Positions 34,158 to 41,815 of a stretch of DNA of 64,000 nt are shown here, one piece after another. A program made the translations under genes and the position numbers. This stretch comes from Fusobacterium ulcerans (GTDB lineage: Bacteria > Fusobacteriota > Fusobacteriia > Fusobacteriales > Fusobacteriaceae). The stretch's first letter is position 1. Each line of letters starts with the position of its first letter. Below the pieces are notes generated by a model that was not told where the DNA came from, made no database searches, and saw nothing but the letters and a program-made list of their open reading frames with translations. The DNA lies in assembly GCF_003019675.1 (NCBI RefSeq), contig NZ_CP028105.1, positions 1,938,282-2,002,281 of the forward strand. The letters are read 5' to 3'.

Positions 34158-35336
34158 TTAATTTTCAAATAAAGAAATATAGCTTATCTCGTTATCGTTA
34201 TATTCAGCAAAGATTATAAAATCATTATCAAAATATTCCAGCTCTTTTCTTATTTTTAAAGATTGCAGAGACTTCAAAAATTGGGGATTTAAAGTAAGAT
34301 AGTTAAACTTTAAATTTGCTAATATCTTAAATAGATCAGAGTGCAGCTGAGCTAAAGAAGTATATTTTTTCTCAATATTCTCTATACATTTAAATGTTTC
34401 AGAAAATTTTGTTATTTTATTTTTAAATCTGTTTTCTGCATAATTCAGATCAATAGCTTCTTCAAAGAAGACTTTAAAACCATTTTTAGGGTAATGAGCT
34501 ATACTGTAATTTACATTTTTTATAATATAGTCATAACTTTTATCATCAAGAGACTTGAAGACTTTTGTCCAAAGGTCTTTTTTTATGTCCGAAATTGAAA
34601 TTGCCCCTTCTATCTTTTCAATAATGCCATTAGCAAGAGTTGCTTTTTCCTGCTCGTTGATATCCTTTATTTCAAGAAGTAATCCAATAATTTTTGAGTT
34701 AGAAGAATCTCTATTCTTAATTTTTGTATATTCAAGATTTTTTTTAGTTACTTTGGATATTTCTTGAAATGCTGGTTTTAATATCATTTTTTCAAAATCA
34801 AAAAATCTATCATATGAATCTTCCAATCCCAGTAAATTTTTTAATTTCTGTATGGAAATCTCAATGGATTTATTCATGGAAATATTAAATTTAAGAAAGT
34901 TATATAGTGCAATTGCATAATCGTTCTGGAAAAAAAGAAGTATGTCAAAATCATTTTTTTGAAAGTAAGAATTTTTTTGGAAAATTGATCTGAACTCTTC
35001 TGTAAAAATTACCTTGATATAATTTTTTTCTATATGGTATGAAGATATAATAGAGAAAGCTCCCTTTTTTTCAATTAGTTCCAGCTTAAAAACAGTATAG
35101 ATAATTATTTTTTCTGTAAGCTTCTGAAATATTTTAAGAATATTTTCCAGCTCTCCCAGCATTAAAAGCTTTTTTATTTTTAATATTGGAACAAGAATAT
35201 TATTATTTAATATATCTTCTTTGTCTTTTAACAAAAAATCAAAGAGAATTTTTTCTTTTTTTGAAAAAACTTTATTAAATTTGATATCTATCTCTTTTTC
35301 ACTCAAACTAATATAATCATTAAAATTTTTCTTCAA
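34158..35336 (-). CDS. Rep_3 family replication initiator-like protein
   Basis: 392-residue protein resembling plasmid RepA/RepB initiators. The N-terminal winged-helix region is followed by the family block FQNDYAIALYNFLKF (compare SxYAIRLYELLK), IQKLKNLLGL, and SYDRFFDFEKMILKPAFQEI, which match the second winged helix of Rep_3. The C-terminal 170 residues are unlike the usual Rep_3 tail. It starts at TTG (35334-35336 on the plus strand reads CAA) behind a good AAGGAGGAA. In a chromosomal setting it could be a relic of an integrated plasmid or a domesticated DNA-binding protein. No parA or transposase lies nearby. Confidence 0.65.
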   Translation of the reverse strand: MKKNFNDYISLSEKEIDIKFNKVFSKKEKILFDFLLKDKEDILNNNILVPILKIKKLLMLGELENILKIFQKLTEKIIIYTVFKLELIEKKGAFSIISSYHIEKNYIKVIFTEEFRSIFQKNSYFQKNDFDILLFFQNDYAIALYNFLKFNISMNKSIEISIQKLKNLLGLEDSYDRFFDFEKMILKPAFQEISKVTKKNLEYTKIKNRDSSNSKIIGLLLEIKDINEQEKATLANGIIEKIEGAISISDIKKDLWTKVFKSLDDKSYDYIIKNVNYSIAHYPKNGFKVFFEEAIDLNYAENRFKNKITKFSETFKCIENIEKKYTSLAQLHSDLFKILANLKFNYLTLNPQFLKSLQSLKIRKELEYFDNDFIIFAEYNDNEISYISLFEN

Positions 35337-35636
35337 AAAAATTCCTCCTTTTTAAAATTATTTTATACGATATTTTATATTTTTTCTATTTTGCAAACGA
35401 TAAATTTTAAAACTAAAAATCGTCTATAAGAAAATAATAGCATAAAAATTCAATAAAATAAATATATAGTTTAATAAACTACATAAAGAAATATAGTGTT
35501 ATATGAAAAATAACGACGAAAATTGAAAATTTGACAAAGTAAAATAAAAAATGTATAACTGATATCAAGAAGATGAGGTTGATAAAAAGATTATTTGGTT
35601 CAAAATAACACATAATTTAGGGCGGTGTTTTTAGAA
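35337..35636. other. AT-rich divergent intergenic region with possible Rep-binding words
   Basis: Three hundred bases without a gene, between the divergent Rep-like gene and the dga-like operon. ACGATA followed by TTTTA occurs twice (near 35366 and 35395) and an inverted ATCGT near 35418. These might be an operator or remnant iterons, but the repeats are short and imperfect. No long iteron array is present. Confidence 0.35.
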
Positions 35637-36758
35637 ATGAAGACTGTTATAAAAAATGGAAGGCTTTTAGATAAGAAAAATAACTTCCATATGACAAAAG
35701 CGGATATCTTAATAGAGAATGGAGTAATAAAGAAGATTGGTGAAAACATCAATGAAGAGGCAAGCAGAATAATAGATGTGGAAAATAGCATAGTATCTCC
35801 AGGATTTATAGATATACATGTTCATTGTTATCCTTCAGAAAATACAAATGGAGTATTTCCAGATGAAATAGGAGTGAAAAAAGGAGTTACAACAATAGTT
35901 GATGCTGGAACAGCTGGTGGAGAAACAATAGAGGACTTTGTTGAAAATGTAATAAAAAAGTCTAAAACAAGAGTATATTCACTATTAAATATTTCATCTA
36001 TGGGATTGAAAATAAAAAGTGAACTTAGTGATATGAAAAATATAGATAAAGAAAAAATAAAAGAAGCATTAAATAAATATCCAGATTTAATAGTAGGATT
36101 AAAAGCAAGAGCCAGTGGTTCAGTAGTAAAAGAAAATGGGATAAAGCCAATAGCTGAAGGGAAGAAAATAGCTTCAGAATTAGAAGTTCCATTAGTAGTG
36201 CATATAGGAAATACTCCTCCAAAAATAGAAGAAGTACTAGAACTATTAGGAAAAGGAGATATAGCTACTCACTGTTACAATAATAAAGTAAATGGGTTGG
36301 TAAGAGAAGGAAAAGTTATTCCTGAAGTTAGAGAAGCAATAAACCGTGGAGTGCTTTTTGATGTAGGACATGGTTCAGAAAGTTTTTCTTTGGATACAGC
36401 AGATGAAGGAATAGAAGAGGGATTTGAAGCAGATATAATAAGTACAGATATCTATTCTAAAAATATAATTACACCAGTGGGAAGTCTTGAAAATACAATG
36501 AATAAGATGATGTATCTTGGATGGTCAGTAGAGAAATGTGTGGAGAAAGTAACAAATGTTCCTGCTGAGGCGTTAAAATTAAAAGGCCTTGGAGAACTTA
36601 AAGAGGGTTATATGGGAGATCTTACTATATTTGACATAGTAGAAAATGGGAAGTTAGAATTAAAAGACAGTGTAAATAAAGTAATAACAGCAGAGAAATA
36701 TATAAAAACAAAGTATGTATTTATAAAAGATGAATTAATTAAAAAGGAGGATATTTAG
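35637..36758 (+). CDS. Amidohydrolase/deacetylase (EF_0837/AHA_3915 type)
   Basis: Zinc-dependent hydrolase of the dihydroorotase/deacetylase group, 373 residues. FIDIHVHCYP carries the HxH metal site, VGLKARASG the carboxylated lysine, VHIGN and THCYNN further histidine ligands, and STDIY the catalytic aspartate. The frame starts at a GTG (35625), but the ATG at 35637 follows AGGGCGGTG. It is the first gene of the dga-like operon and overlaps the PRD gene by one base. It may remove an acetyl group or open a lactam before the ammonia-lyase acts. Confidence 0.87.
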   Translation: MKTVIKNGRLLDKKNNFHMTKADILIENGVIKKIGENINEEASRIIDVENSIVSPGFIDIHVHCYPSENTNGVFPDEIGVKKGVTTIVDAGTAGGETIEDFVENVIKKSKTRVYSLLNISSMGLKIKSELSDMKNIDKEKIKEALNKYPDLIVGLKARASGSVVKENGIKPIAEGKKIASELEVPLVVHIGNTPPKIEEVLELLGKGDIATHCYNNKVNGLVREGKVIPEVREAINRGVLFDVGHGSESFSLDTADEGIEEGFEADIISTDIYSKNIITPVGSLENTMNKMMYLGWSVEKCVEKVTNVPAEALKLKGLGELKEGYMGDLTIFDIVENGKLELKDSVNKVITAEKYIKTKYVFIKDELIKKEDI

Positions 36759-37123
36759 TGAAAGATTTATTGAAAAATGTTCAAACAAGATTAAAAATGA
36801 CAGATGAGGAGTTTGAAATGTATCTTCCAGATGCTGAACATGCAACTAAAGTATTAGCAGAGGAAAAAATAGAATTTCTTCCAGATTTTAAACTTGTATT
36901 TTATGCACATATGGTAAGCTTGGCAAAGAGATTAAAAGAAGATATTGGATTAGATTGTGGAGATGACTGTCCAGAAGATGAAGTAGAAAGAGAAGCGATA
37001 GAGGTTTCAGAAAAAATAATTATGCCTTTGGCAGAAAAATATAAAAGAGATTTAGATAGAATGGAAATAGTTCTAGCAGCTATTCAATTACAATTGGCAA
37101 TGGAGATGCAACAAGAAAATTAA
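36758..37123 (+). CDS. Stand-alone PRD domain protein (EF_0829/AHA_3910 type)
   Basis: 121-residue helical protein that matches a single PTS regulation domain without a DNA-binding part. The conserved histidines that PTS proteins phosphorylate in such domains may be H28 (DAEHATKV) and H51 (FYAHMVSLAKRLKED). It starts at GTG, overlapping the preceding TAG by one base, behind AAGGAGG. Its family occurs only in operons of this type, so it probably regulates the cluster transporter or enzymes by phosphorylation. The partner is unknown. Confidence 0.8.
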   Translation: MKDLLKNVQTRLKMTDEEFEMYLPDAEHATKVLAEEKIEFLPDFKLVFYAHMVSLAKRLKEDIGLDCGDDCPEDEVEREAIEVSEKIIMPLAEKYKRDLDRMEIVLAAIQLQLAMEMQQEN

Positions 37124-37157
37124 TTAATGATATAATATACTTTAGGAGGTAAAGAAG

Positions 37158-37523
37158 ATGGAAAAAGAAATCGTAGTAGTAATAGCACACAGACTAGGGA
37201 AAGGTCAAAATGTAGCAAAGGGAGTGGAAGCAGCTGGAGGAAAAGCAATAGTTGTACCTGGTATGGCAGCAGATATGAAGCTTGGAGATGTAATGAAGGA
37301 AAATAATGCAACATTTGGAATTTCTTTCTGTGGAAGTGGAGGAGCTGGAGCGATAATGGCTCAAACAAAATATGGATATAAAGCAACTTCTCATTTAAGA
37401 TCAGTAGAAGCAGGAGTTACAGCTATTAAACAAGGATATCAAGTGGTAGGATTTGGTTTCTTAGATACAGAAGAATTAGGAAGAAGATTAGTAGAAGAAT
37501 ATAAAAGAGTAAATGGTTTATAG
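37158..37523 (+). CDS. SFCGS family glycine-rich protein
   Basis: 121-residue protein named for its central ISFCGSGGAGAIMAQ motif, with the single cysteine at position 58. It has the look of an alpha/beta Rossmann-like fold with HRLGKGQNVAKGVEAAGGKA near the start. The cysteine-glycine-rich loop recalls the phosphocysteine loop of PTS IIB proteins, but no homology can be claimed. It always travels with DUF4310, DUF4311 and DUF4312 proteins, so it is likely the soluble component of that transport system. Start at 37158 follows AGGAGG. Confidence 0.85.
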   Translation: MEKEIVVVIAHRLGKGQNVAKGVEAAGGKAIVVPGMAADMKLGDVMKENNATFGISFCGSGGAGAIMAQTKYGYKATSHLRSVEAGVTAIKQGYQVVGFGFLDTEELGRRLVEEYKRVNGL

Positions 37524-37546
37524 AATAAAATAGGAGGCATAAAATT

Positions 37547-37831
37547 ATGAAAGAGGCAAAGTTACAGAAAGAAGTAAAAACTTTGATTATAAAGGGATCT
37601 GGAAAAACAAAGGAGGAAGCTCTGGGGAAAGTCTTTGCTCTATTCAGAAAGAAAGTTCAGGATGAAACAGATGGAGTTATAGTGAAATTAGAACCTTTAG
37701 AAACATACCTGATTAATATAAAGGAAGAAAAGAAAATAGAAAAATTTCTTGAACTTTTTATGCCAAGAGAAAAAACTACTTATTTTATTGAAATGGAAAT
37801 TGAGTATGAAATCAAGTATATAAAACTCTAA
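37547..37831 (+). CDS. DUF4312 family protein
   Basis: 94-residue small soluble alpha/beta protein. The pattern is a beta strand (LIIKGSGKTKEEALGKVFALF), a helix, then two strands ending in FIEMEIEYEIKYIKL. It belongs to a family found only beside SFCGS and DUF4310/4311 genes. Its role is unknown. It may be a subunit of the same membrane complex. AGGAGG precedes it, and the next gene follows after 13 bases. Confidence 0.85.
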   Translation: MKEAKLQKEVKTLIIKGSGKTKEEALGKVFALFRKKVQDETDGVIVKLEPLETYLINIKEEKKIEKFLELFMPREKTTYFIEMEIEYEIKYIKL

Positions 37832-37844
37832 GAGGGAGGAAAAT

Positions 37845-38564
37845 ATGATAGTTATAGTTATAAAATCATTAATTATTGGATTTATAGGGGGAGCAGCAGT
37901 AGCAGCAGGGGCAGCTAGAATGTTTCACACACCTAATTCACAATCAATGGGAGCATTTCGTACACTAGGAGAACTTAATGCATGTCAAGGAGACCCAATG
38001 GCACATTTCTCATTTGGTTTAGGTTTTCTATTTAATGCAGCAGCAGCAGTAATGGCAGCAGGAGCACTTACTCAGGATGTTTTCCATAGAATAGTTCCTA
38101 ACTTTGCAGCAGCAAGTTTGCTAATAAAGAATAAAAATGTAGAAGAGACAATGCATGATCCATTAAAAATGGGAATAATGGGAGGATTTATAGGAGCTAT
38201 AGTAGTAACTTTTTTAAATACTGTTGCCTCTCTTATACCAACAGCGTTATCTCAAATAGCTAAAGAAATATTATCTCCAGCAGCAGCTTTAATGATTAAT
38301 CCAGTAATGCCGATAGTATTCTGGCTAGCAGCTTTAGATGCAGGTAAGATAACTGGAGTATGGGCAACAGTTCTAGGTGGAATGGCTCATATGATCATGG
38401 GAAATGCTGTTCCAGGAATAGTTTTAGGTATCCTTATAGGACAAACGATTGATGAAAATGGATATAATAAGTCTGTAAAAGTAATGGGAGCAATAGTAAT
38501 AGTTTTATTTATAGTAATTGCTTATTTTAGAGGATTCTTTGCAAAACTTGGATTATTTATGTAA
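37845..38564 (+). CDS. DUF4311 family membrane protein
   Basis: 239-residue integral membrane protein with about seven hydrophobic segments. The N-terminal half holds the family motif ARMFHTPNSQSMGAFRTLGEL followed by ACQGDPMAHFSFGLGFLFN. GGA- and GCA-rich small-residue helices suggest tight packing like transport channels. With DUF4310 it is the best candidate for the membrane part of an uncharacterised importer of an amino-sugar acid. It is translated from an ATG behind GGGAGG. Confidence 0.87.
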   Translation: MIVIVIKSLIIGFIGGAAVAAGAARMFHTPNSQSMGAFRTLGELNACQGDPMAHFSFGLGFLFNAAAAVMAAGALTQDVFHRIVPNFAAASLLIKNKNVEETMHDPLKMGIMGGFIGAIVVTFLNTVASLIPTALSQIAKEILSPAAALMINPVMPIVFWLAALDAGKITGVWATVLGGMAHMIMGNAVPGIVLGILIGQTIDENGYNKSVKVMGAIVIVLFIVIAYFRGFFAKLGLFM

Positions 38565-38579
38565 ACTGGAGGGATAATT

Positions 38580-39218
38580 ATGGAAAATAAAAAAAGTAAT
38601 TTTTTACTAGCAGATATGTCATTTCCAATATTAGTAGGAATGGCATGTGCAGCAATATTTGCAGGAACTCATATGTTTGTTGTTCATGGTGTAGGAGCTT
38701 TTAATGAAATATTTACTGTAAAACTTTTGGAACAAGGGATAACTAGTGGGGATTATGCAGCAGCAGCAGGATATGCAGCTGGATTTCTTATTGCCAGAGT
38801 ATTGGAAGGACCATTGGTAGGATTGCTAGATATTGGAGGATCTCTAATGACTGGAGTAGGAATTGGGATACCTGCTATGTTATTAGCTTCTGGAATAGAA
38901 AGTCCTGTAAAAAGTTTTCCTTTAGCTTTATTGGTAGGATTAGTAATAGGATTAATTATAGGAATTATTATTATCGCTATTAGAAAAGCTGTTCCAGATG
39001 GAATGTCAGCTGGTGGTACAGGAATAATGATGGGAGCTGGAAATGCTACTGGAAGATTCCTTGGTCCTCTTATCATATTATCTGCTATTCAATATAATAT
39101 TCCAGCAGGAGTAGGGTCATTTTTAGGAGCAGCTCTTTTCTATAAATTTGACAGACATATAGCAGGAGGAGCAATAATAGGAGCTATGCTTATTGGAGGA
39201 TTAGCTTTACTTTTCTAA
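38580..39218 (+). CDS. DUF4310 family membrane protein
   Basis: 212-residue integral membrane protein with about six hydrophobic segments. GVGAFNEIFTVKLLEQG and FLIARVLEGPLVGLLDIGG followed by TGVGIGIPAMLLASG are the family blocks. The second half has IIIAIRKAVPDGMSAGGTGIMMG, a reentrant-looking glycine-rich region. It pairs with the DUF4311 protein in every operon of this kind. Transport activity is inferred from composition and context, not shown. Confidence 0.87.
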   Translation: MENKKSNFLLADMSFPILVGMACAAIFAGTHMFVVHGVGAFNEIFTVKLLEQGITSGDYAAAAGYAAGFLIARVLEGPLVGLLDIGGSLMTGVGIGIPAMLLASGIESPVKSFPLALLVGLVIGLIIGIIIIAIRKAVPDGMSAGGTGIMMGAGNATGRFLGPLIILSAIQYNIPAGVGSFLGAALFYKFDRHIAGGAIIGAMLIGGLALLF

Positions 39219-39240
39219 ATGACATGGAGATGAAATAGTT

Positions 39241-40344
39241 ATGAATATATATGAAAAAATAGGATTGAAAAGAGTTATCAACGGAAGTGGAAAGATGACA
39301 GCTCTAGGAGTATCAAAAATAAGTGATACTGTAGCTGAAACAATGAAAGAAGCAGGACAGAATTTTGTAGTCATTGATGATCTTATTGATAAAGTGGGAG
39401 AGATGATATCTGAAGTTACAGGAGGAGAAGATACTTGTGTTACATCTAGTGCTTCAGCAGCAATTGCTCTTTCAGTAGCAGGATTGATAACAGGAAAAAG
39501 TCTTACTTTAATAGAAAGACTTCCAGACACAACTGGATTAAAAAATAAAGTTGTCCTTCAAAAAGGGCATGCTGTAAACTATGGAGCTCCAATCACTACA
39601 ATGATAAGATTGGGTGGAGGAATACCAGTAGAAGCAGGATGCAGCAATGAAGTAAAACCAGAACATGTAGAAGAGGCAATAGATGAAAATACAATAGCTC
39701 TTCTGTATGTAAAATCACATCATGCAGTACAAAAGGGAATGCTTTCTATAGAAGAAATGTCAGAGATAGCTAAAAAACATTCTCTTCCATTAATAATAGA
39801 CGCAGCAGCTGAAGAGGATATACATAGATATCTTAAATTAGGTGGGGACCTTGTAATATATTCTGGAGCAAAGGCATTGTGTGGACCAGCTTCTGGATTT
39901 GTTACAGGGAAAAAACAATACATAGATGCAATAAAAATGCAGTATAAAGGTATTGGAAGAGCTATGAAAATAGGAAAAGTATGTATGATGGGGCTGATGA
40001 AAGCTGTAGAAGAATATTCAAAAAGAGATGAAAAAGCTGTTGTAGATGAACAGATGAGATTGGCAGGTCTTTTGATGGAAGAATTAAAAGATGAACCAAA
40101 AGTAGAAACATCTATAGTGCAGGATGAAGCTGGAAGAGAGATATATAGAGTACAGATAAAATTAAATGAGAAACTTACTAATATGTCAGGAAAAGATTTC
40201 ATGAAACATTTAAGAGAAGGAGAAGCAGAAATTCATGTGAGAAAGCATTATGCTAATCTTGGAATTGTAAATGTAGATATGAGAGCTCTTACAGAAAGTG
40301 ATATTAAATTTATAGGTGCAAGAATAAAAGAGATTTTAAAATAA
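39241..40344 (+). CDS. dgaE: DgaE-type PLP-dependent ammonia-lyase (SelA-like fold)
   Basis: 367-residue pyridoxal phosphate enzyme related to D-glucosaminate-6-phosphate ammonia-lyase of Salmonella. The PLP lysine lies in VIYSGAKALCGPASGF and the phosphate-binding segment in TCVTSSASAAIALSV. Family members convert an amino-sugar acid phosphate into a 2-keto-3-deoxy acid and ammonia. The next gene encodes the matching aldolase, 13 bases downstream. The start at 39241 follows TGGAGATG-type spacing. Confidence 0.88.
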   Translation: MNIYEKIGLKRVINGSGKMTALGVSKISDTVAETMKEAGQNFVVIDDLIDKVGEMISEVTGGEDTCVTSSASAAIALSVAGLITGKSLTLIERLPDTTGLKNKVVLQKGHAVNYGAPITTMIRLGGGIPVEAGCSNEVKPEHVEEAIDENTIALLYVKSHHAVQKGMLSIEEMSEIAKKHSLPLIIDAAAEEDIHRYLKLGGDLVIYSGAKALCGPASGFVTGKKQYIDAIKMQYKGIGRAMKIGKVCMMGLMKAVEEYSKRDEKAVVDEQMRLAGLLMEELKDEPKVETSIVQDEAGREIYRVQIKLNEKLTNMSGKDFMKHLREGEAEIHVRKHYANLGIVNVDMRALTESDIKFIGARIKEILK

Positions 40345-40357
40345 TCAGGAGGAACAA

Positions 40358-41107
40358 ATGCAGACAAAGATCAAATTTTATAAAGATAGAGTAGCAGTAA
40401 ACTTTTTAGCTAAAGATAAGAAAAATGGAGCAGATGTATTTAATGCTATAGATGGATATACAGCTATTGGAGTATTGTCAAAACAATTTGATACAGTAGA
40501 AGAGGGAATTGAATATGTAAAAGATTACATGAAAGATGTACCAGTTGTATCAGTAGGACTTGGAGCAGGGGATCCAGCTCAATTCCAAAAAGCAGCTTTA
40601 ATAGCAGCAGCAACTGATCCAGGACATGTAAATCAGGTATTTACAGGAGCAGCATATGCAGCAGGAGCATTAAAAGCAATGAAAGCAGAAAACACAGCAG
40701 TGAATGTCTTGATGAGCCCAACAGGAATAGTAGGAAAAGTAAAAATCTCAACTGGAGAGTTAAGTGCAAAAGAAGAGCCAGCAATAGTTGATGTAGATAC
40801 AGCAATGGCAATGGTATTAGATATGAGAGCTCAGGGGATAAAATATTTTCCAATGGGGGGACTAAAATCAAAAGATGAATTAAAAGCAGTGGCAGAAGCA
40901 TGTGCAAGACATGGAGTGCCAATGATGGAACCATCAGGTGGAGTAGATTTAAGCAACTTTAAAGAGATTACTAAAATATGTCTGGATGCAGGGGTAGAAA
41001 AAGTTATGCCTCATATCTATGGAGCGGTAATAGATAAAGAGAGCGGAAATACAAAAATTGAAGATGTAAAAGCAGTGTACCAAATGGTTAAGGAACTTCT
41101 TGATTAA
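40358..41107 (+). CDS. dgaF: 2-dehydro-3-deoxy-phosphogluconate aldolase, DgaF type
   Basis: 249-residue TIM-barrel aldolase of the EF_0839/AHA_3917 family, which splits KDGP into pyruvate and glyceraldehyde 3-phosphate. The N-terminal KDRVAVNFLAKDKKNGADV and the C-terminal EPSGGVDLSNFKEI and MPHIYGAVIDKESG match the family. It completes the pathway begun by DgaE. The HAD phosphatase gene starts one base after its stop, so the operon continues. Confidence 0.88.
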   Translation: MQTKIKFYKDRVAVNFLAKDKKNGADVFNAIDGYTAIGVLSKQFDTVEEGIEYVKDYMKDVPVVSVGLGAGDPAQFQKAALIAAATDPGHVNQVFTGAAYAAGALKAMKAENTAVNVLMSPTGIVGKVKISTGELSAKEEPAIVDVDTAMAMVLDMRAQGIKYFPMGGLKSKDELKAVAEACARHGVPMMEPSGGVDLSNFKEITKICLDAGVEKVMPHIYGAVIDKESGNTKIEDVKAVYQMVKELLD

Positions 41108-41108
41108 T

Positions 41109-41765
41109 ATGGAAGAGACAAAACTGGTAATCTTTGATATGGATGGACTGCTTTTAGATACAGAGAGACTTTCCAATATTGCCTGGATAGAAGCAGGAGA
41201 AAATATGGAAATAGATATTACCCATGATATTTTAAGAAGAATAAAGGGTAGTAATTTAAAAAATACAGTAAGTGTTTTAATGAGTTTTTTAGATGAAGAG
41301 AAATATAAAAAACTTATTGAAGAGAAAAAAAGAATACAAGTAAGAGTTGAAGAAGAAGAAGGGATAAGGTTAAAAAAGGGAGTATTAGAATTATTGACTT
41401 TTTTAAAGGAAAAGAAAATAAAAACAGCAGTGGCAACATCTACTGGAAGAGAGCTGGCAACAAGAGAATTACAAGATACAGGTATATATGAATATTTTGA
41501 TGGATTTGTTTTTGGGGACGAAGTGAAGAATGGGAAGCCAAATCCAGAAATATTTTTAACAGCTTGTGAGAAGTTTTATGTTACTCCAGAAAATGCAGTT
41601 GTTCTTGAGGATTCTGTATTGGGATTGAAAGCAGCCGTTTCTGGTGGTATAAAATGTATAGTGGTAGAAGATACTGTACAGCTTACTGATGAGGAAAACA
41701 GACTGCCATATAGAAAGTGTGAAAGTTTGTTGGAAGTGAGAGATTTCTTTAAAGAAGTAATATAA
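41109..41765 (+). CDS. HAD superfamily phosphatase, beta-phosphoglucomutase-like
   Basis: 218-residue haloacid dehalogenase fold enzyme. FDMDGLLLDTE holds the nucleophilic and acid aspartates, VATSTGRELA the threonine/serine motif II, and KPNPEIFLTACE and VLEDSVLGLKAA motifs III and IV. The frame begins at TTG 41100 inside the previous gene, but the ATG at 41109 is better, one base after the dgaF stop. Placement suggests action on a sugar phosphate made by the dga-like pathway, or removal of a toxic phosphorylated intermediate. Confidence 0.88.
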   Translation: MEETKLVIFDMDGLLLDTERLSNIAWIEAGENMEIDITHDILRRIKGSNLKNTVSVLMSFLDEEKYKKLIEEKKRIQVRVEEEEGIRLKKGVLELLTFLKEKKIKTAVATSTGRELATRELQDTGIYEYFDGFVFGDEVKNGKPNPEIFLTACEKFYVTPENAVVLEDSVLGLKAAVSGGIKCIVVEDTVQLTDEENRLPYRKCESLLEVRDFFKEVI

Positions 41766-41783
41766 ATGGGGAAAGAAAAGAGA

Positions 41784-41815
41784 GGCAGTTGATTTCAATA
41801 TCAACTGCCTTCTTT
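41784..41815 (+). terminator. Terminator of the dga-like operon
   Basis: GGCAGTTGAT pairs perfectly with ATCAACTGCC around a six-base loop and is followed by a T-rich stretch broken by single C and G residues. Confidence 0.8.

Follow-up and report, generated by a model that had tools for sequence, protein, structure and literature searches.

Within a 64,000-nt stretch of the Fusobacterium ulcerans genome (contig NZ_CP028105.1 of assembly GCF_003019675.1, positions 1,938,282 to 2,002,281; hereafter the window), eight genes located on the + strand at 35637-41107 encode, in this order, an amidohydrolase, a lone PRD protein, SFCGS, DUF4312, DUF4311 and DUF4310 proteins, the ammonia-lyase DgaE and the aldolase DgaF. 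Our results indicate that the five-gene block PRD-SFCGS-DUF4312-DUF4311-DUF4310 is probably a phosphorylating importer dependent on the phosphotransferase system (PTS), and a candidate for a PTS-like complex that evolved separately from the Enzyme II (EII) families known so far. Known PTS permeases constitute a handful of unrelated families. An earlier note on this DNA had described the eight genes and their order, all of which were recovered at the same coordinates with matches to the respective families. It had also proposed a new transport system, perhaps phosphorylating, which is now supported by HPr and Enzyme I (EI) genes linked to the cassette, by the near-absence of sugar kinases alongside it, and by the phosphate pocket of DgaE.

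The block is widely distributed. When one genome per species was scanned, at least 538 DUF4311 relatives were retrieved, from which 79 loci were kept, and the addition of plasmid records and further genomes yielded 107 loci with the block. Among these, which belong to Fusobacteriota, Firmicutes, Actinobacteria and Proteobacteria, the five genes form a rigid cassette of fixed order, flanked on either side by catabolic genes whose order varies. Amidohydrolase, DgaE and DgaF were all present in 94/107 cassette loci, and a BglG/MtlR-type regulator was found nearby in 93/107; five loci carry the block with no catabolic genes in the vicinity. The gene families of the window are those of the EF_0829-0839 / AHA_3910-3917 cluster (TIGR03577-03583), known only as conserved hypotheticals, and this equivalence, suggested earlier, was confirmed by the names of the NCBIfam models as well as by the Enterococcus faecalis locus, where the cassette genes are joined by a lactose-type EIIC, MupG and a sugar kinase. 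Our literature search retrieved no functional paper for the DUF names or for these locus tags, EF0838/EF0839 being mentioned only in screens or pathway proposals.

Operons with the same catabolic genes can be served by other transporters. A gluconate symporter and a sugar kinase accompany amidohydrolase-DgaE-DgaF in Priestia, a lactose-type PTS with MupG and a kinase does so in Clostridioides, and a mannose-type PTS is found with Dga genes, without the amidohydrolase, in Lacticaseibacillus and two Proteobacteria; therefore, the cassette appears to fill the transporter slot. Furthermore, related DgaE genes without DgaF pair with ABC or GntP transporters. A distinct possibility is that the block constitutes a membrane-bound sensor or protein-modifying complex controlling the pathway, instead of transporting the Dga substrate, given that the soluble PRD and SFCGS proteins could sense the PTS state or a ligand, and that some blocks stand apart from catabolic genes. 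However, no other transporter was found beside most cassettes, alternative transporters occupy the cassette position in cassette-free operons, and the block contains two large, conserved membrane subunits, all of which makes this possibility very improbable. In some Enterococcus, Lactococcus and Clostridioides loci (L011, L064, L082, L140, L171), MupG and a lactose-type EIIC join amidohydrolase-DgaE-DgaF, a hint that an extra substrate may be a glycoside of this sugar acid.

The distribution of kinases is consistent with phosphorylation by the block itself. A PfkB-type sugar kinase was identified in 7/7 cassette-free amidohydrolase-DgaE-DgaF loci, drawn from the DgaF survey and plasmid records, versus 3/107 loci with the cassette, one of them being the E. 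faecalis locus with the lactose-type EIIC. In the DgaF survey alone, the kinase was present in 5/5 loci without the cassette and in 0/18 with it (p 3e-5, uncorrected for relatedness and only a guide, because related genomes are not independent).

A connection to the PTS was provided by HPr and/or EI genes located inside or adjoining the cassette in 22/107 loci from about 7 lineages. These loci represent 7 of the 35 clusters defined at 85% DUF4311 identity, compared to approximately 1% of loci predicted by a rough gene-density estimate. An HPr-EI fusion is encoded at the end of the cassette on a Bartonella plasmid; HPr-EI precedes the regulator in Acidaminobacter and Paenibacillus, and HPr alone does so in Fusibacter and some Paenibacillus; HPr follows DgaF in Brevibacillus and Alkaliphilus, and HPr-EI follows it in one other genome. 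The cassette-linked HPr proteins retain the His phosphorylation motif. The HPr gene of locus L192, on the opposite strand and beside genes resembling the rpoN region, was left out of the count. EI was present in 34/34 of the cassette-bearing genomes or records tested; a negative outcome would have been possible, yet the test is weak because EI is common.

The DgaE-family ammonia-lyase of the window, dependent on pyridoxal phosphate (PLP), is encoded at 39241-40344 (+); it scored above the cut-off of TIGR01437 and below that of NF047797, the equivalog of D-glucosaminate-6-phosphate lyase (DGL; 433 bits vs a cut-off of 600). DgaF (40358-41107, +) is assigned as an aldolase of 2-keto-3-deoxy-6-phosphogluconate (KDPG) by equivalog NF047796 (359 vs 300 bits). 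In a docking model, the substrate phosphate of DGL is placed at Arg301, Arg332 and Arg346 (PMC9529869). The window DgaE retains the PLP-binding Lys211, His160/His161 and the phosphate arginines R303/R334/R348, and the three arginines were retained in 92/92 cassette-linked DgaE proteins, while two homologues encoded at loci that have neither DgaF nor a kinase lack Arg346. As judged from these residues, the DgaE substrate is likely phosphorylated.

Regarding the identity of this substrate, the first gene of the operon (35637-36758, +) encodes a COG3964/EF_0837-type amidohydrolase (418 bits on NF006689, with a cut-off of 371; slightly under the cut-off for TIGR03583/EF_0837), a predicted N-acyl-D-glucosaminate(-6-P) deacylase. 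Enzymes of COG3964 presumably use N-acetyl-D-amino acids and related esters as substrates. Because the amidohydrolase occurs with DgaE, the substrate would be glucosaminate in the form of an N-acylated D-alpha-amino acid. One such compound, N-acetyl-D-glucosaminate, is released from chitin by lytic polysaccharide monooxygenases (LPMO), and an unphosphorylated pathway for it is known (PMC9537276). No LPMO was found in the host genome, and LPMO genes were found in 5/33 cassette genomes, a count with no background rate; consequently, the link to oxidised chitin is weak, which counts against this part of the proposal, and chitin as a source of the substrate is possible but in general unsupported. 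In two Proteobacterial genomes an LPMO gene is located ~14 kb (G477:C22) and ~24 kb (G386:C1) from DgaF, which may be due to chance.

Two soluble proteins of the block are candidate phosphocarriers. The lone PRD protein (36758-37123, +), a candidate EIIA-like carrier with an invariant His51, scored 21.0 bits on PF00874, marginally below the 23-bit cut-off; nevertheless, its homologues in the other loci, mostly annotated as PRD, form a single family together with it. The first PRD His, an Arg seven residues later and one Glu were invariant in every row compared, including those of the yhf operons (see below). All Fusobacteriota rows, which lack the BglG regulator, have Gln at the position of the second His, whereas this His is kept in 89/89 of the remaining module rows and variable in yhf; the comparison of PRD with YhfY was based on separate sequence sets. 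With the PRD gene adjoining SFCGS in 102/106 loci and its invariant His, this protein looks like a member of the transport module and not just a regulator. Among the remaining recurrent partners of cassette loci, none was suited to serve as a separate EIIA.

The SFCGS protein (37158-37523, +; PF14272, 1e-59), a candidate EIIB-like carrier, resembles the RpiB/LacAB isomerases in its C-terminal half and in the catalytic Cys loop: Cys58, in GISFCGSGGAGA, is invariant and aligns with the catalytic Cys66 of RpiB. The RpiB/LacAB model PF02502 was matched by 32/50 SFCGS members (best E 3.5e-5), and the SFCGS profile reached E 7e-4 against E. coli RpiB, compared to 0.04 or worse for EIIB, EIIA, HPr and unrelated controls. 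The relation is remote, as the window member alone obtained 15.5 bits on PF02502, below the curated cut-off of 24.7. This similarity allows a reading of a single subunit, which overlaps the others discussed here, in which SFCGS would be an isomerase-like catabolic enzyme and the membrane pair would transport without it. We consider it improbable, since aldonates cannot undergo aldose-ketose isomerisation, SFCGS remains with the transport genes where catabolic genes are not near, and the gene of its relative YhfU remains linked to that of the membrane protein YhfT. The relationship of SFCGS to E. coli YhfU is weak, with E values of 5e-5 and 2e-5 in two alignments and reciprocal weak Pfam matches.

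The remaining members of the block are DUF4312 (37547-37831, +; family match 5e-24), a small soluble subunit in which no conserved His or Cys was found, and the candidate translocator halves DUF4311 (37845-38564, +; 3e-111) and DUF4310 (38580-39218, +; 2e-92), with approximately 8 and 7 transmembrane helices in their models, respectively. Both contain many conserved polar residues within predicted helices. The earlier proposal of a transport system formed by SFCGS and the three DUF proteins is refined in that DUF4311 and DUF4310 are the only membrane proteins among them, SFCGS being a soluble protein of the RpiB/LacAB type. Homology of DUF4311/DUF4310 to YhfT or to the lactose-type EIIC was rejected, with no similarity in the profile comparison for the former and E values of 0.3-0.5 for the latter, in both cases using partly shallow alignments.

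Several findings weigh against a PTS-type mechanism. No PTS EII domain was detected within 35637-41107, as the earlier note had stated. SFCGS matches no PTS_IIB family and scores with EIIB, EIIA and HPr as it does with unrelated controls; no EIIA domain of a known family was found in the window operon, the lone PRD being outside the known EIIA families. DUF4311 and DUF4310 match only their own Pfam/NCBIfam models and no PTS EIIC family, and their AlphaFold2 models (pLDDT 84.6 and 81.1) had no significant Foldseek match, the best VIA Z values being 4.7-4.8 and no PTS EIIC being listed; these searches used single chains of a likely complex. The lack of a match does not mean new folds. As the sequence membership tests for every known family were negative, the block should not be filed as a known EII. 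In addition, Paenibacillus and Brevibacillus account for most of the HPr/EI cases, and the role of HPr and EI could be limited to the PTS-sensing BglG regulator. Kinase-linked DgaE proteins retain the phosphate arginines too, and no residue position separated them from the cassette-linked set at the thresholds used; therefore, the pocket is silent on the origin of the phosphate and DgaE does not reveal its source. Finally, the host genome harbors elsewhere, beside an Eda aldolase, a kinase of 2-keto-3-deoxygluconate (KDG) that could phosphorylate KDG.

This kinase keeps alive the alternative of a non-phosphorylating importer, either secondary (ion-coupled) or facilitated, on which PRD, HPr and EI would act only in regulation, in the manner of PTS-controlled regulators, while a housekeeping kinase would add the phosphate. 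The lack of EII homology agrees with this alternative, as do the BglG/MtlR-type regulators accompanying most cassettes, which in the scanned set carried PRD in 64/64 cases and an EIIA_2 domain in 21/64. Conversely, it does not fit the operon kinase that is constant in cassette-free loci and almost never found with the cassette, nor the Bartonella plasmid cassette that brings its own HPr-EI, nor the Fusobacteriota loci, which retain PRD although the BglG regulator is missing nearby and a Rep-like gene is found in its place. On balance, we regard import without phosphorylation as unlikely and favor a phosphorylating importer.

In such a PTS-dependent importer, the phosphoryl group would pass from phosphoenolpyruvate through EI and HPr to the invariant His of the lone PRD, then to Cys58 of SFCGS, and from there to the substrate held by the EIIC-like DUF4311/DUF4310 membrane pair, with DUF4312 as an accessory subunit of the complex; our confidence in this exact order is lower than in the phosphorylating importer itself. 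N-acetyl-D-glucosaminate or another N-acyl form is the probable substrate, which would enter as its 6-phosphate, to be deacylated by the amidohydrolase and deaminated by DgaE to KDPG, which DgaF would split into pyruvate and glyceraldehyde-3-phosphate.

A broader proposal arises from the uncharacterised E. coli yhfSTUWXYZ/php operon (NC_000913), which, like the cassette, encodes a PRD protein (YhfY), an RpiB-like Cys protein (YhfU) and a membrane protein (YhfT), and in Firmicutes copies of yhf the YhfY-, YhfU- and YhfT-type genes are adjacent in that order. However, YhfT is a single 434-aa protein without detectable similarity to DUF4311/DUF4310, and the catabolic genes of the E. coli operon are different. 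It is conceivable, although we hold this only tentatively, that both systems belong to an independent PTS permease superfamily, with PRD as EIIA, the RpiB-like Cys protein as EIIB, the two DUF membrane proteins as translocator, and yhfY-yhfU-yhfT as a second branch. The yhf-type set of PRD, RpiB-like and membrane proteins was observed in Firmicutes and Gammaproteobacteria (L002, L203-L210).

The transcription unit is longer than the interval 35637-41107 given previously, because a HAD_2 phosphatase gene (41100-41765, +) starts within the last nucleotides of DgaF, and a terminator-like hairpin (41782-41811, +) comes after it; most likely, transcription continues through this final gene to the hairpin. 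The phosphatase may relieve the build-up of sugar phosphates. The commonest extra gene at module loci encodes a Cof-type HAD phosphatase, and HAD-type phosphatases of two subfamilies are located directly behind DgaF in L021, L024, L037, L045, L046, L049, L083, L177, L179 and L182, a recurrence that suggests a need to relieve sugar-phosphate accumulation.

Upstream of the operon, the promoter/operator region (35337-35636, +), which proved conserved when Fusobacteriota upstream regions were aligned, contains a promoter with TTGACA (35531-35536) and TATAAC (35554-35559) separated by a 17-nt spacer (+), and iteron-like ACGA repeats near 35366, 35396, 35418 (inverted) and 35512; no riboswitch or other Rfam element was found upstream of the operon. 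Divergent from it, a gene at 34158-35336 (-) encodes a 392-aa winged-helix protein similar to plasmid Rep_3 initiators (PF21205 Rep3_C, 1.5e-9), which is present at the same divergent site in Fusobacteriota loci L197-L201 (67-95% identity where measured) and more weakly in L202 and L016. This Rep-like protein is probably the operon regulator, replacing BglG in Fusobacteriota. Rep-like paralogues with ~30% identity are encoded elsewhere in these Fusobacteriota genomes.

Two characterized systems are among the closest to the window operon. According to the account in PMC9529869 and to Miller et al. (2013) as cited in PMC10746210, Salmonella dgaABCDEF takes up D-glucosaminate by a mannose-family PTS; it shares with the window the DgaE-family lyase, the DgaF aldolase and a phosphorylated substrate, but uses the mannose-type permease DgaABCD, in whose place the window has the five-gene block; the window additionally encodes a deacylase. 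The mannose-type dga loci of our survey have a LevR-type regulator and no amidohydrolase. The Pseudoalteromonas ong pathway for N-acetyl-D-glucosaminate from oxidised chitin also proceeds by deacylation, deamination and KDPG formation, but employs an SSS symporter, a D-aminoacylase-type OngB, OngC and KdgK, which belong to other protein families, with unphosphorylated intermediates (PMC9537276).

If the proposed function is correct, a further PTS permease family would be present in Enterococcus, Klebsiella, Aeromonas, Fusobacteriota, Paenibacillus and bee-gut symbionts. For the known N-acetylglucosaminate enzymes, Aeromonas was reported to have only distant homologues or none detected (PMC11653859), a gap that the cassette may fill. 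A genome study of Gilliamella found no glucosaminate metabolism genes (PMC11325843), whereas many Gilliamella loci of our survey (L054, L060, L061 and others) carry the block with DgaE/DgaF homologues; here too, the cassette may account for what was missing. Furthermore, several families of unknown function would be assigned together, PRD domains would possibly be phosphoryl carriers and not only regulatory targets, and yhf of E. coli K-12, at present an orphan operon, would acquire a function class.

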